Below, piece after piece: positions 54,528-64,000 of a stretch of DNA of 64,000 bases (positions are counted from its first letter, which is position 1; each line of letters opens with the position of its first letter). The notes below the pieces were generated by a model. It had not been told where the DNA came from. It saw nothing but the letters and a program-made list of their open reading frames with translations, and did no database searches. Both the position numbers and the translations under genes were made by a program. This DNA comes from Thermorudis peleae (GTDB lineage: Bacteria; Chloroflexota; Chloroflexia; Thermomicrobiales; Thermomicrobiaceae), in contig NZ_JQMP01000003.1 of the NCBI RefSeq assembly GCF_000744775.1, forward strand, positions 124,001 to 188,000, read 5' to 3'.

Positions 54528-56738
54528 CTACTGCGTGATGATCCCCGCTTGCACGGCCGCATCCACCACCTGCCGTGCCAGGGGCGCTGCCGTCACCGAG
54601 CCCTCGCCGCCGTGCTCGACCATGACAACCGCTGCCAGCTTCGCCCCGTCCACCGGCGCAAACTCCGCGAACCAGGCGTGCGGCTGCTGCTGCCCGCTCT
54701 CGGCCGTCCCCGTCTTGCCCGCAACCGGCACCTTCTCTCCGCGGAACGCCGTCACCGCCGTGCCATTCGGTGCTGACGTCACGTCATGCAGCGCGCTGCG
54801 AATATCCGCCAGGTGCTGCGGCGAGACCGGGAGCGTGCCCCGCGCCTTCGGCTGGTGGGTATAGAGCTTCGTCCCATCGACCGCCACCACCTCTTGCACC
54901 AGATAGGGCTCCCAGAGCGTCCCACCGTTCGCGATCGCTGCATAGGCATCGGCCAGTTGCAGCGGCGTTGCCAGGAAGAAGCCCTGCCCAATCGCCAGGT
55001 TCACCGCATCGCCCCGCGCCCAGTAGTCGTTCTTTTGCTGCCGCTTCCACGTCGGATCCGGCACGAGCCCAGCAACTTCCGGTAACTCCGCCAGCCCCGT
55101 CTGCGAGCCAAACCCAAAGCCCCGCGCCATCTGCGGCAGCAGGTTCGGGTCATGCTCGTCGAGCTGGGCACCAATCTGGTAGAACACCGTGTCACACGAC
55201 TGCACCAGCGCATTGTGCAGCGTCAGCACACCCTGCCCGTTCGGGCTCCAGTCGTGCCACACCTGCGAGCTGCCAGGCAACGAGAACGTCGCCGGACAGT
55301 TGATCCGCGTCTGCGCCGTCATCCCCAGCTTCTCGAGCGCCGCGGCCATCGTCACGACCTTAAACGTCGATCCCGTCGGGTAGGCCATCTGCGTCGCCCG
55401 GTTCACCAGCGGCTGCTTCTGCGGATCATTCAGCGCGTTCCACGCCTCCGGCGTCATCCCCAGGATGAACTGGTTCGGGTCGAAGCTCGGGTTGCTGGCC
55501 ATCGCCAGGATCGCCCCGGTGTTCGGGTCGAGCACGACGATGCTGCCAACCTTGTCCCCCAGCGCCTTGTAAGCCGCCTGCTGCAAATCAGCGTCGATCG
55601 TCAGCACGATGTCGGCAGCCGGCTGGCTCGGCACCTCCGCTAGCAGCTTCCGCTCCTGCCCGTCCGGCCCGACGATCACCAGCCGCCCGCCGCGCTTGCC
55701 GCTCAGGTACTGCTCGCCCCACGCCTCAATGCCTGCCCGGCCAATCCGGTCGCCAACCTCATAGCCCCGGTCAGCATACTTCGCCAGCTCGTCGGCGCTA
55801 ATCTCCGTCAAATAGCCCGTGATGTGCGCCGCCGCTGGCCCCAGCGGGTAGACGCGGTCGGGCCACTGCCGGATCACCACCCCGGGAATCGCCAGTAACT
55901 TCTGCGCCAGCTGCGGATCGACCGGATCGGGCAGCGTGGTGATCGGCATGAACCAGTCCGGCTGCCCGTTCGCATAGCGTTGCTTGATGACGTCCTTCGG
56001 CAGGTTCAGCAACTGGCTCAAGCTCTCCAGCAGCGCGTTCTCGTCCTTGATCTGCCCGGGAATCACCCCGACCTTGTCCACCATCCCCAGCTCTGCCAGT
56101 GGCCGCCCCTTGCGGTCAAGGATCCGGCCACGCTGCGGCACCACCGGCACCCAGCGCACGTAGCCGTCTCCCAGGTCAGCCACAATCAGCGAGGGCGTCC
56201 AGTCTACCCGATATTGCCCTTGCTCGCGAATAATCGGGATCACATTGTCTTCGGTCAGCGTCCCCACCCGGCTCGTCTGCCGCACCACGTGGATCGGCAG
56301 CCGCATCGCCCCCGGCGCGGCCGTCCCCAGCGTTACCGTGATCGACCGCTGCCCCATCTCGGCCGCAATGTCCTGGTACCGCTTGACGAAGTCCGCCTGG
56401 CTGATGTGCGACTGCGCGGCACTTGAGATCAACGGGTACATTGCGGCATAGTCGCCCTTCTGCCAGGCCGCGATGAACGCCTGGGCCAGTTCCTGCGGCG
56501 ACGCGAATGTCGCCCCAGCCGGCACGGGCGTGCCGCCAGCCACCGCCAGCGGACTCGCCGTGCTCGTCGCCGCCGCTGTCGCCGTCGGCTCCGGCCCGGC
56601 GGCAAGGCGCCCCAGCCGCGCTGCGAGCAGGAACGCTCCCCCCACCACGACCAGCACGCTGACCACACTGACGATGATCAGGGCAGGATTCCGGCTCCGT
56701 TCGAGGCGTCGAGCCGGGACCGTTGAGTATCGTCGCAC
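54528..56738 (-). CDS. Class B penicillin-binding protein with MecA-type N-terminal domain
   Basis: A 736-aa peptidoglycan transpeptidase. One membrane anchor near the N-terminus (ALIIVSVVSVLVVVGGAFLL), a Thr/Ala spacer, an NTF2-like MecA_N domain (about 65-180; ELAQAFIAAWQKGDYAAMYPL), a dimerisation domain beginning RGRILDRKGRPLAE, then the transpeptidase: S457-x-x-K460 in PTGSTFKVV, S514-C-D in QSCDTVFYQIG and K675-T-G in AGKTGTAES. The SxN motif is SCD. It builds cross-links in wall elongation or division. The GTG at 56738 has GGGGGTG upstream; ATG 56762 lacks a ribosome site. Confidence 0.92.
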   Translation of the reverse strand: MRRYSTVPARRLERSRNPALIIVSVVSVLVVVGGAFLLAARLGRLAAGPEPTATAAATSTASPLAVAGGTPVPAGATFASPQELAQAFIAAWQKGDYAAMYPLISSAAQSHISQADFVKRYQDIAAEMGQRSITVTLGTAAPGAMRLPIHVVRQTSRVGTLTEDNVIPIIREQGQYRVDWTPSLIVADLGDGYVRWVPVVPQRGRILDRKGRPLAELGMVDKVGVIPGQIKDENALLESLSQLLNLPKDVIKQRYANGQPDWFMPITTLPDPVDPQLAQKLLAIPGVVIRQWPDRVYPLGPAAAHITGYLTEISADELAKYADRGYEVGDRIGRAGIEAWGEQYLSGKRGGRLVIVGPDGQERKLLAEVPSQPAADIVLTIDADLQQAAYKALGDKVGSIVVLDPNTGAILAMASNPSFDPNQFILGMTPEAWNALNDPQKQPLVNRATQMAYPTGSTFKVVTMAAALEKLGMTAQTRINCPATFSLPGSSQVWHDWSPNGQGVLTLHNALVQSCDTVFYQIGAQLDEHDPNLLPQMARGFGFGSQTGLAELPEVAGLVPDPTWKRQQKNDYWARGDAVNLAIGQGFFLATPLQLADAYAAIANGGTLWEPYLVQEVVAVDGTKLYTHQPKARGTLPVSPQHLADIRSALHDVTSAPNGTAVTAFRGEKVPVAGKTGTAESGQQQPHAWFAEFAPVDGAKLAAVVMVEHGGEGSVTAAPLARQVVDAAVQAGIITQ

Positions 56739-56818
56739 TGCACACCCCCGGCATCGTAGCACCGGCCGCTGTCGGCGACCCGGCGTGCCCTAATGCTGGC
56801 AGCTGAAGGGGGTGCGCG

Positions 56819-59257: not shown

Positions 59258-61567
59258 ATGAGCACCGGAACTGCTGGTCTGCGTGCCCCGTGGTCGTTCC
59301 CCAAGTTTCCGTTTTCCTGGACACAACGCGCCGTGCTCCTCGCCGCGCTCTTGATCAGCGCCGTCGTCGGCCACACGGCCTACTACCGCGTGACCGGCCA
59401 GTCATCTGCCCCTGTCACACCGCCGACCGTCACGCCCGTCCGCCGGGGCACAGTGGCCGCGACGGTCTCGGCCTCCGGCAACTTGACGACTGACACGACG
59501 CTGAATCTCAACTTCGCCACATCGGGCCGTGTCCAGGAAGTGCTGGTCAAGGTCGGCGACCAGGTCAAGGCCGGCCAGCCACTCGCTCGCCTCGACCCGA
59601 CCGACCTGCAGAACCAGGTGAACCAGGCCCAGGCCCAGGTCGCCGCGGCCCAGGCGCGTCTTGACGCCGTCATGCACCCCTACACCCAGGCTGACGTCGC
59701 TGCGGCGCAACAGCAAGTGGCGCAGGCCCAGGCCTCCTATACCCAGGCCGTCAACAACCTCAACGCTCTACTGAACCCGAGCCCGGCCGACATCGCTGCG
59801 GCGCAGCAGCAGGTGGCCCAGGCTCAGGCAACCTACCAATCGGCTCTGAACAACCTCAATACCTTGCAAAACCCGAGCCAGGCTGACATTGCTGCCGCCC
59901 AGCAGGCCGTCCAGCAGGCCCAAGCCAACTACCAGACCGCGCTCAATAACCTCAACACGCTCCAAAACCCGAACCAGGCCGACGTCGCCGCAGCCCAGCA
60001 AGCTGTCCAGCAAGCCCAGGCCAACTACCAGACCGCGCTCAATAACCTGCAGAACCTGCAGCAGCCGAACGCCGCCGACGTCGCTGCGGCCCAGCAGGCC
60101 GTCGCTCAGGCTCAGGCAGCCTACCAGAGTGCCCTCAACACGCTCAACACGCTCCAGCATCCGAGCCAGGCCGACATCGCTGCTGCCAACCAGGCCGTGC
60201 AACAGGCTGGCGCAAGCCTCAGCCAGGCCCAGAACAACCTCACCTTCTGCGGCCGGCAGGGCTATCCCGACTGCGTCACTGCCCAGCGCCAGGTCGATTC
60301 CGCCAAGGCCGCACTCGACGCCGCTCGCCAGAAGCTCTACCAGCTCATGAACCCCGACCCCGCTCAGATCGCCGCGGCCCAGCAGCAGGTGCAGTCGGCC
60401 AAGCAAGCCCTCGATGCCGCCAACGCCAAGCTCCAGCAGTTGCTCAACCCCGATCCCAGCCAGGTCGCCGCGGCCCAGCAGCAAGTCAACGCCGCCAAGT
60501 CGGCGCTCGATGCCGCCCAGGCCAAGCTCAACCAGCTCCTCCATCCCGACCCGAACCAGCTGGCCGCCGCGCAGCAGCAGGTCGACTCGGCCAAGGCCGC
60601 GCTCGATGCTGCCAACGCCAAGCTCAACCAGTTGCTCCATCCTGACCCCAGCACGATCCAGGCCGCGCAGCAGCAGGTCGACTCGGCCAAGGCTGCGCTC
60701 GACGCCGCCAACGCCAAACTCAACCAGCTCCTCCACCCCACCGCCCGCGATATCAGCAACGCTCAGGCGGCCGTCCAGAGCGCGCAATCAGCCTTGAACG
60801 CTGCCCAGGCTCACCTGCAGCAGGTGCTCGCTGGCCCCTTGCCGACCGACGTCGCCCAGCAGCAGGCAGCTGTCCAGCAAGCCCAGGCCGCCTTGCAGCA
60901 GGCCCAGGACAACCTCGCCAAGGCCACCTTGACTGCGCCGATCGATGGTGTCGTAACGGCCGTCAACATCAAGCCCGGTGACCTGGTCGGCACCTCGAGC
61001 GCCAGCGGCGCCATCAGCATCCTCAACAACACCGGACTCTACCTGCAGGCGACGATCAGTGAAACCGACGTGCCCAACGTCAAGGTCGGCCAGCCGGCGA
61101 TCATCACGCTCGACGCCCTGCCCAACCAGCGCTTCACCGGCCACGTCTCGGCCATCTCGCTCTCGCCCACCGTCACCCAGGGCGTCGTGACCTACACCGT
61201 CCTGCTCTCCCTCGATAACACCCCGGCCACCAGCAGCCTGGCCCCGGGCATGACCGCGACCGCCTCGATCATCACCCAGCAGCACACCAACGTGCTCGTC
61301 GTCCCCTCGCGGGCCATCCGTCGCCAGGGCACGCAGCAGGTCGTCGACGTCTGGGCCAATGGCCATATGGTCACCCGGACCGTGACGACCGGCCTGAGCT
61401 CCAATAACCTTACGGAGATCACCAGCGGCCTGAACGAAGGCGACCTCGTCGTCGTGCCCACGACTGGCACGGCTGGCACGACTGGTACGACCACGCAAGC
61501 GACGCCCGCGGCCAACGCGCCACGCGGCTTCGGTGGCGGCGGCTTCTTCGGCGGCCCCGGGCGATAG
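59258..61567 (+). CDS. MacA/HlyD-type periplasmic adaptor protein with long repetitive helical hairpin
   Basis: A 769-aa membrane-fusion-type subunit. One membrane anchor (about 23-43), a lipoyl half-motif [21 protein letters not shown], then about 13 helical repeats of 32 residues (145-557): AQQxVxQAQAxYQxAL..L..P in the first half and [16 protein letters not shown] in the second. Cys331 and Cys339 (CGRQGYPDC) separate the halves. The second lipoyl half ([16 protein letters not shown]) and the beta-barrel ([28 protein letters not shown]) follow. A Gly-rich tail ends it. ATG 59258 follows AAGGAGG. It works with the ATPase and permease encoded next. Confidence 0.9.
59690..60926 (+). repeat. 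Internal 96-bp tandem coding repeat of the macA-like gene
   Basis: About 13 units of 96 bp encode 32-residue helices ending in a Pro kink (NPSQ, HPDP). Two unit types occur, one before and one after the two-Cys loop (Cys codons at 60248-60250 and 60272-60274). Units 2-4 and 9-10 are very alike at DNA level, which suggests recent expansion and makes the region prone to recombination or misassembly. Confidence 0.85.
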
Positions 61568-61577
61568 GAGGTGTGCG

Positions 61578-62324
61578 ATGATCCGCGTCCGTAACCTCAA
61601 GAAGATCTACCAGATGGAAGGCGGCGTGACGATCCCAGCCCTGGCCGGCGTCTCGCTCGACATTGCCGACGGAGAGCTGGTCGCGATCATGGGGCCCTCC
61701 GGCTCGGGCAAGTCGACGCTGATGTACATCCTCGGCTGCCTCGACCAGCCCACCTCTGGCACCTACGAACTCGACGGCGTCCTCGTCAACGAGCTCTCCG
61801 ACGACAAGCTGGCCGAGATCCGCAGCAAAAAGATCGGCTTCGTCTTCCAGAACTACAACCTGCTCCCCCACCTGCCCGCCATTGAGCAGGTCGAGATGCC
61901 GCTCATCTACCTCGGCCTGCCGCGCAGCGAGCGCCGCAAGCGGGCCCGTGAGGCGCTGATCGCCGTCGGACTCGGCAACTTCCTCGATCACCGCCCCACC
62001 CAGCTCTCCGGCGGCCAGCAGCAACGCGTCGGCATCGCCCGGGCGCTCGTCAAGGAGCCCTCCCTCATCCTCGCGGACGAGCCGACCGGCAACCTCGACA
62101 GCCGCTCCGCCGAGGAGATCCTCGCCATCTTCCAGCGGCTCAACGCCGAGCGCGGCATCACCATCGTCCTCGTCACCCACGAGCCCGATATCGCCGCTCA
62201 CACGCAACGCGTCATCCGCATGCGCGACGGCTTCGTCATCGGCGACGAGCGCCAGGAGCCCGTCCTGGCCGGCAGCTGGGCCACCGTTGCGCCCGCGGTG
62301 ACTTCACCGGAGGTGCAGCCATGA
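61578..62324 (+). CDS. ABC transporter ATPase, MacB/LolD type
   Basis: A 248-aa ATPase. Walker [10 protein letters not shown] (about 38-46), [14 protein letters not shown] (Q loop), signature [15 protein letters not shown], Walker [13 protein letters not shown] and the switch His in VLVTHEPD. The [15 protein letters not shown] phrase is typical of LolD/MacB families. It powers the permease encoded next, overlapped by ATGA. ATG at 61578 has GGAGGTG. Predicted cytosolic, membrane-associated. Confidence 0.95.
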
Positions 62325-63568
62325 GCATCGGCGACGCCTTCGCCATCGCCTTCCACGCCCTGGCCACCAACAAGCTGCGCACCGCCCTCACCATGCTCGG
62401 CATTATCATCGGCGTCTGTGCCGTCATCGCCATGATCGCCATCGGCCAGGGCGCCCAGCAGCAGGTCGTCTCCCGCATCTCCTCGCTCGGCACCGACCTG
62501 CTCTACATCCGCCCCGGCGCCCAGCAGCAGAACGGCGTGCGCACGGCCGCCGGTACCGCCCCGACCCTCAGCATCGACGACGGCCAGGCCATCGCCCAGA
62601 ACGTCGACAACGTCAAGGCCGTCGTCCCCGTCGTCTACGGCAACGCCCAGGTCATCTACCAGGGGCAGAATGTCAACACCCGTATCATCGGCACGACCCC
62701 AGCCTACCAGGACGTCCATAGCTACTATCCCGTCGACGGCGACTTCTTTACCGACCAGGACGTTACCGCCGCCAACCCGGTCATCGTCCTCGGCTCCAAC
62801 GTCGCCCAGGAACTCTTCGGCGACACCGAGCCGGTCGGCCAGACCGTCCGCGTCTCGGCCGGCCGCGTCTCGATCCCCTTCCGCGTCGTCGGCGTGATGC
62901 AGTCGAAGGGCAGCCTCGGCTTCGTCAATGTCGACGACCAAGTGCTGATGCCCCTCACAACGCTCGCCCGCAAGATCCAGGTTAACCGCAACACCAAGGG
63001 TGGCCAGCTCGTCGACGAACTCGACGTCCAGGTCACCAGCACGGACGTAATCCCAACCGTCCAGAACCAGATCGACGACCTGCTCCGCACGCGCCACCAG
63101 GTCGCTCAGGACGACTTCACGATTCTGAGCCCGCTCGACTTCCTGAACACGCTCTCGAGCGCGATCCAGGCCTTCACCATCCTGCTCGGCAGCATCGCCG
63201 GTATCTCCCTCGTCGTCGGCGGCATCGGCATCATGAACATCATGCTCGTCTCGGTCACGGAGCGCACACGCGAGATCGGCATCCGCAAGGCGATGGGCGC
63301 CCGGCGACGGGATATTCTGACCCAGTTCCTGATCGAGGCCGTGACGGTGAGCCTGATCGGCGGCGCAGCCGGCATCTTGCTCGGCGTCGGGGCAGCCCAC
63401 GTGCTCAACGGCCGGCAGATCGGCACCGGCACGCTAACAACGGCGATCGTGCCGTCCTCGATCGTGCTGGCCTTCACCGTCGCCGCAGCGGTCGGGATCG
63501 TCTCCGGGATCTACCCGGCGATGCGGGCTGCCTCGCTCAACCCGATCGAGGCCCTGCGGTATGAGTGA
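62321..63568 (+). CDS. ABC transporter permease, MacB/FtsX type
   Basis: A 415-aa membrane protein with the MacB layout: one N-terminal helix ([20 protein letters not shown]), a large extracytoplasmic domain (about 40-270; [38 protein letters not shown]) and three C-terminal helices. [23 protein letters not shown] before helix 3 is the FtsX coupling loop. With the ATPase and the adaptor it forms a tripartite-like exporter, probably for a peptide, lipid or drug. No outer-membrane channel is expected in this lineage. ATG overlaps the ATPase stop by 4 nt. Confidence 0.95.
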
Positions 63569-63688: not shown

Positions 63689-64000
63689 ATGCGCAATCGC
63701 TTTACCCAGGTACTCGCCGTCGTCATCATCCTCGGCCTCGGCATCGGGGCTGCATTCGCCGCCGGCTCGGTCTACGGCCGGAACACGGCGGCCAAGAACG
63801 TCCAGCCGGTCGTCATCGGCGCGGGCGGCACAGGCGGCGTCGCCGCAGCGAGCGGCACAGCCGACGCCGCCGGTGGCACCGGCAGCGGCAGTGGCAGTGG
63901 CCGCCAGGGCTTCGGCGGAGGCGGCTTCGGCGGCGCCATCAGCGGCACCGTCAGCGCTGTCAACGGCCAGCAGCTCACGCTGACGCTCGCCAACGGCCAG
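63689..64000 (+). CDS. Secreted Gly-rich protein, 3' truncated by window edge
   Basis: The first 104 codons of a gene that runs past 64000. It has a signal peptide/anchor (1-31, VLAVVIILGLGIGAAFAAG), a Gly/Ser-rich stretch (GGTGSGSGSG, FGGGGFGG) and then SGTVSAVNGQQLTLTLANGQ, which looks like the start of a DUF5666-type OB-like beta fold. ATG at 63689 follows GGAAAGGAGAAGG. It is 120 bp after the permease and likely co-transcribed, so it may be the substrate or partner of the exporter; unproven. Confidence 0.7.
   Translation, partial: MRNRFTQVLAVVIILGLGIGAAFAAGSVYGRNTAAKNVQPVVIGAGGTGGVAAASGTADAAGGTGSGSGSGRQGFGGGGFGGAISGTVSAVNGQQLTLTLANGQ

Follow-up and report, generated by a model that had tools for sequence, protein, structure and literature searches.

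A MacA-like export adaptor of Thermorudis peleae with a giant segmented hairpin whose two halves probably form one long rod

It is an open question why bacteria that have no outer membrane retain pump adaptors (PMC5985334, PMC4446572), and a gene of Thermorudis peleae, a member of the Chloroflexota, raises it again. The gene lies in a 64,000-nucleotide stretch of this genome (the window), and its product is a MacA/HlyD-type adaptor with a giant segmented hairpin. How is such a hairpin built, and what could it do in the envelope of this bacterium? The open reading frame (59258-61567, plus strand, 769 aa) is intact, begins with ATG and has an AAGGAGG-like site upstream. An earlier note on this DNA had called the product a MacA-like adaptor with a long repeat rod, and the domain searches bear out the family: TIGR01730, HlyD_3, Biotin_lipoyl_2 and HlyD_D23 all scored over their cut-offs, and TIGR01730 (RND_mfp), at 176.1 bits against a cut-off of 94.9, identifies an RND/HlyD-type periplasmic adaptor.

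The domains follow one another on the plus strand in the order of an adaptor. A hydrophobic stretch in the translation (59327-59386, residues about 24-43) is probably an N-terminal membrane anchor. The first half of the lipoyl domain (59504-59596, residues 83-113; Biotin_lipoyl_2, 50.2 bits) is separated by the inserted helices (residues 114-559) from a region at 60926-61462 (residues 557-735) that holds the second lipoyl half, the beta-barrel and a probable membrane-proximal domain. HlyD_3 covers residues 557-664 of this region, the best stretch of RND_mfp runs from 531 to 734, and a profile match to solved MacA structures gave an E value of about 1e-49. MacA was also the best solved relative of the class profile (E 8.7e-50). 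The NCBIfam MacA equivalog PRK11578 gave 95.7 bits, under its cut-off of 342, so we describe the adaptor as MacA-like and do not file it as MacA proper.

Directly downstream, and again as expected of a MacA-like protein, are genes for a MacB-type ABC ATPase subunit (61578-62324, plus strand; PF00005, 118.5 bits) and a MacB-type permease with MacB_PCD and FtsX domains (62321-63568, plus strand; PF12704, 178.9 bits; PF02687, 86.8 bits). The best NCBIfam model for the ATPase was MacB, with 268.8 bits, below the full-length cut-off of 966. The permease is followed by the gene for a probable exported DUF5666 protein of 214 aa (63689-64333, plus strand, L153:4690-5334, running past the window end at 64000; PF18914, 31 bits, cut-off 27), which by its position may be part of the operon. 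An ABC Walker A motif was found in the DNA downstream of the adaptor in 51 of the 61 representatives described below. Beyond the window and downstream of the operon, on the minus strand, lies a gene for a secreted-looking protein of 728 aa with C-terminal Thr/Pro/Gly tandem repeats (TATPTGTPTGTP; L153:6213-8399, corresponding to 65212-67398).

Between the two lipoyl halves, the DNA is repetitive. Tandem Repeats Finder reported two adjoining 96-bp arrays, at 59686-60208 and 60281-60739, with scores of 377-512. Neighboring units are mostly 63-81% identical as DNA (compared in the first five units of the N half and the first four of the C half), and the N half and C half are only about 50-59% alike. 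The halves thus have two consensus sequences, as had been claimed, and a simple assembly duplication is unlikely. Assembly error as the source of the repeat number is likewise not supported: the units have diverged by at least 19%, and relatives with the same 6+6 layout occur.

To count the segments we relied on the helix breaks, each marked by Pro or Gly followed by D-[IVL]-x-x-A-[QE], which we located by a position-specific scan trained on relatives. The outgoing strand (59597-60247, plus strand) has breaks at residues 146, 178, 210, 242, 274 and 306; the returning strand (60275-60934, plus strand) has them at residues 370, 402, 434, 466, 498 and 530. The strands are joined by a tip loop, CGRQGYPDC (60248-60274, plus strand, residues 331-339), with Cys331 and Cys339 at its ends. 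The break intervals read 32,32,32,32,32|64|32,32,32,32,33, with the tip interval between the bars equal to twice 32, and DSSP on an AlphaFold model placed seven helices before and seven after the cysteine loop. Of the earlier description, the periodicity of 32 residues or 96 bp therefore stands; the count of about 13 units, six before and seven after the loop, is replaced by six breaks and seven helices on each side, and the hairpin of "some 410 residues" is in fact about 446 residues long (114-559), roughly four times the length of a textbook adaptor hairpin.

We compared this protein with more than 100 Chloroflexota relatives, found by searches that covered the order, the class and the phylum, and clustered them at 60% identity into 61 representatives for statistics. 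The same-family adaptors that we found were all short, about 330-375 residues, with one open frame of 463, and one long adaptor was found in the same order (genome G008). In other families of the class and phylum, long adaptors (about 500-1000 residues) are common. The long-hairpin proteins among them (for example L064, L065, L044 and L094) have hairpins of about 160-630 residues with the same break motif and palindromic segments, and differ in how many segments they have, in how long these are, and in the length and the cysteines of the tip. In a quick tree of the C-terminal domain, with modest support, the short adaptor of the window genome clusters with its short counterparts in the family, and the long adaptor falls among long adaptors of other families; it may have been acquired from outside the family. 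Matches to plasmids by tblastn were confined to the C-terminal domain, with no record covering 80%, no relatives were found among viral contigs, and a scan of genome contigs gave three loci, none of them useful.

Two further observations concern the bodies of these adaptors. The only other HlyD_3 adaptor of the Thermorudis genome has 349 aa and almost no hairpin (L002, L003, L154; G000:C4:343479-344363). The C-terminal domain of L092 (genome G293) is about 55-60% identical to those of Chloroflexia adaptors that have 3+3 breaks and long tips. The hairpins of L092 and of the closely related L159 (G370), however, show the 4+4 layout 26,26,33|68 found in adaptors of L092's own family. Judged from these sequences, rods may have been exchanged between adaptor bodies.

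Across the relatives, the spacing of the breaks follows a rule. Excluding the tip, intervals are 25-27 or 32-33 residues, and rarely 19 or 40, so that the spacings 19, 26, 33 and 40 can be written as 5+7k residues. There are up to about nine segments per strand, and the series of intervals tend to read the same in both directions: 26,32,32,33,40|73|40,32,32,33,26 in L064 (33 counted as 32-33), 26,26,33|67|33,26,26 in L082, 26,33,33,33,33|71|32,33,33,33,26 in L065, and 26,33x6|129|33x6,26 in L096. The window adaptor conforms: it has as many breaks before the tip as after it, and its segment lengths are mirrored.

The earlier note had read the two unlike halves as the two strands of one rod, and comparison of copy number in relatives favors that reading. 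Break counts on the N and C sides were equal in 42 of 61 representatives, compared with 17.6 under random tip placement (maximum 27 in 2000), and in 47 of 61 once double-length gaps were split. Among the proteins with unequal counts, several proved on reading the sequences to be truncated ORFs or to have a missed break near the tip. Exact palindromes were found in 11 of 17 proteins of mixed segment length (shuffled mean 3.9, maximum 9 in 5000), and 55 of 62 segment pairs matched (null 35.3, maximum 47). These figures are to be read with a motif model trained on the same sequences, a tip taken as the longest interval, and kinship handled by the 60% clustering. We also tried charge covariation between mirrored segments, which looked significant in its first form, and set it aside because segments that were consistently mis-paired scored comparably in part of the control.

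Two alternatives make different predictions for these numbers. The first is that neighboring units within each half pack as spectrin-like bundles, giving a string of short independent hairpins, and single-sequence AlphaFold models do set neighboring units as two-helix hairpins. Yet such packing does not predict palindromic lengths, equal counts on the two sides or odd break counts, which are common (3, 5 and 7 occur), and segments are of equal length in 94% of mirrored pairs compared with 58% of neighboring ones. Matched counts, mirrored lengths and odd counts together fit one long antiparallel rod and not independent neighbor hairpins; the models in question are of low confidence and were made without an alignment, and we regard the string of bundles as improbable. 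The second alternative is neutral slippage, in which the 96-bp repeats expanded without functional consequence. Tandem repeats slip easily, and the five N-half and four C-half units are alike; however, a slippage event alters a single half and would preserve neither equal counts nor palindromic lengths, and units that differ by at least 19% as DNA do not record a recent expansion. This explanation, already disfavored, is the one to which we give very little credence.

The hairpins of the 61 representatives contain 24 cysteines, all of them among the 6,689 residues of the tip intervals; the remaining 15,822 hairpin residues include none. A tip pair is present in 12 of the 61, spaced 8-10 positions apart in 11 of these 12, and lies near the mirror axis in most. 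The two-cysteine loop first noticed in the window is thus a recurrent feature, and because cysteines are confined to the tip, mostly as close pairs, a disulfide between Cys331 and Cys339 is plausible from the sequences.

Structure prediction was less decisive. Both AlphaFold models were made from the single sequence, without an alignment. In the full-length model (pLDDT 52.7, hence of low confidence), residues 269-397 match continuous antiparallel hairpins (EmrA, colicin, Smc) and residues 399-561 match spectrin-like bundles. A tip fragment of 196 residues (pLDDT 81, pTM 0.36) matches adaptors in the form of separate two-helix hairpins, made of neighboring units. These single-sequence models disagree with each other and lean in part to short hairpins, which makes them weak evidence against the rod. 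The coiled-coil rows obtained with VIA-align had the size expected of long helices, and we did not take them as homology.

If straight, the rod would be up to about 33 nm long, an upper limit because a paired hairpin doubled back on itself would fit the palindromy too. In such a hairpin the two strands would stay together, bend at the levels of the breaks and stack into a compact multi-helix stalk. The CusB hairpin folds back in this way and is a solved precedent (PMC4446572), the Pro/Gly-rich breaks are flexible, and those of one strand are level with those of the other, which a hinge requires. Against this, odd and even break counts both occur, and a total length that is typical of a lineage even in divergent paralogues is more readily understood if full length is important. 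We consider the folded stalk unlikely, if a little less so than the string of bundles, and continue with the extended paired rod.

Is hairpin length, then, a property of the lineage? In the sampled long adaptors it ranges from 117 to 675 residues, and lineages differ threefold. Within genomes, paralogue pairs of less than 55% identity in the C-terminal domain (n = 35, picked by similarity to the window protein and so not a full census) differed in hairpin length by a median of 6 residues, compared with 105 for pairs of matched identity drawn from other families. When each family was represented by a single genome (n = 10), lengths were correlated at r = 0.986, and the mean difference was 15.7 residues compared with 142.5 when permuted; 0 of 20000 permutations were as low. 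Segment layout, too, was mostly common to paralogues. Slippage would not maintain almost the same length in paralogues of one genome that are 28-50% identical. Gene conversion may have acted in a few pairs (G092, G111, G116); we rejected it as the general cause of equal lengths, with hairpin identity at 0.44 within genomes and 0.40 between equal-length pairs from different genomes. Pairs taken across genomes within a family differed by a median of 8 residues, as close as same-genome pairs, so shared ancestry may contribute to the agreement.

The length match has exceptions, namely G080 (363/282), G116 (400/320), G148 (178/226), G342 (282/248), G216 (221/431) and G204 (246/622). In a census of 18 genomes, long adaptors occurred side by side with short or nearly hairpinless ones, and the window genome is such a case, with hairpins of 47 and 430 residues in its two adaptors, the other one being the short-hairpin protein. 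Taken together, the sequence comparisons suggest that hairpin length is lineage-typical, in keeping with a ruler that the envelope sets, and they lend indirect support to the idea that the rod crosses the envelope.

What envelope would such a ruler measure? The genome (G000) gave no match to Omp85 or to TolC/OEP (PF02321) in searches that were positive in seven diderm control genomes. The suggestion that this organism lacks an outer membrane is upheld to the extent that neither Omp85 nor a TolC-type exit duct was found, and the result agrees with the reported absence of BAM genes from Chloroflexota (PMC13319060). Envelopes in the phylum may be mono- or "neoderm", which is debated (PMC13319060), and Thermomicrobium roseum, also of the Chloroflexota, is reported to have little peptidoglycan and a protein-dominated wall (PMC2615216). 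The envelope of the phylum is not a plain thick Gram-positive wall. Elsewhere in the window, an ORF on the minus strand (54528-56762) reads by eye like a penicillin-binding transpeptidase and would indicate peptidoglycan synthesis.

We propose the following model, which we hold to be probable as a whole. The hairpin would be lengthened by tandem helix-plus-break segments of 7k+5 residues, always paired on the outgoing and returning strands, and the paired segments would form one long, articulated, antiparallel two-stranded rod, its end probably closed by a Cys331-Cys339 bond. By analogy with MacA and Spr0693, six rods could assemble into a tube on the MacB-type dimer. In place of docking on a TolC, the tube would act as the conduit that leads substrate from the membrane through the envelope, and each lineage would have a tube length adjusted to its own envelope. 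The anatomy of the hairpin, its matched palindromic segments, the tip cysteine pair, the neighboring genes, the lack of Omp85/OEP matches and the lineage-typical length among sampled relatives are observed; the straight rod, the hexameric tube, the disulfide, the crossing of the wall and the transport of substrate are what we infer. A bolder version, in which the Chloroflexota adaptor alone serves as a trans-envelope conduit, a heptad-tuned modular tube with a length that acts as a molecular ruler set by the lineage envelope, is put forward tentatively, and the odds run somewhat against it. This class of adaptors offers a testable answer to the question raised at the outset, namely that they are conduits sized to the envelope. 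If that is true, the depth of the envelope could be predicted from adaptor length as read from a genome, in a phylum where envelope architecture is disputed.

We found no paper that describes the long-hairpin class, in a literature search conducted largely outside subscription journals. The closest systems resemble it in part. MacA of MacAB-TolC (PDB 5NIK, 3FPP, 9QGY) shares the N-terminal anchor, the lipoyl and barrel domains and an adjoining MacB-type partner. Its stem, however, measures about 70 Å (PMC5985334), compared with a hairpin of about 446 residues, 12 breaks and a tip cysteine pair here; it docks tip-to-tip on TolC, whereas no OEP/TolC was found in the window genome; and, unlike MacAB, the ATPase and permease here are separate proteins. 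Gram-positive MacB-family systems with adaptors handle peptides and drugs (PMC5985334). Spr0693-0694-0695 of the Gram-positive Streptococcus pneumoniae (PDB 5XU0, 5XU1) is likewise a three-gene MacAB-like system, for which a hexameric nanotube across the inner-wall space has been proposed, with its apex about 154 Å above the membrane (PMC5768738). The helical barrel of Spr0693 is only 56 Å, with segment repeats not reported (PMC5768738), whereas the adaptor described here is segmented and longer. The hairpins of mycobacterial MmpL5, also long and antiparallel, together form a channel that has been proposed to bridge the periplasm with no separate duct (PMC12262633), but MmpL5 is a trimeric RND transporter with its own hairpin and ours is an ABC adaptor. 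Adaptor coiled coils are known to gain or lose length in heptads in both helices (PMC4446572). This rule holds here too, but whole break-bounded segments are added in mirrored pairs. What appears new is a class of giant, break-segmented hairpins with a mirrored segment rule, a tip cysteine pair and a length typical of the lineage.
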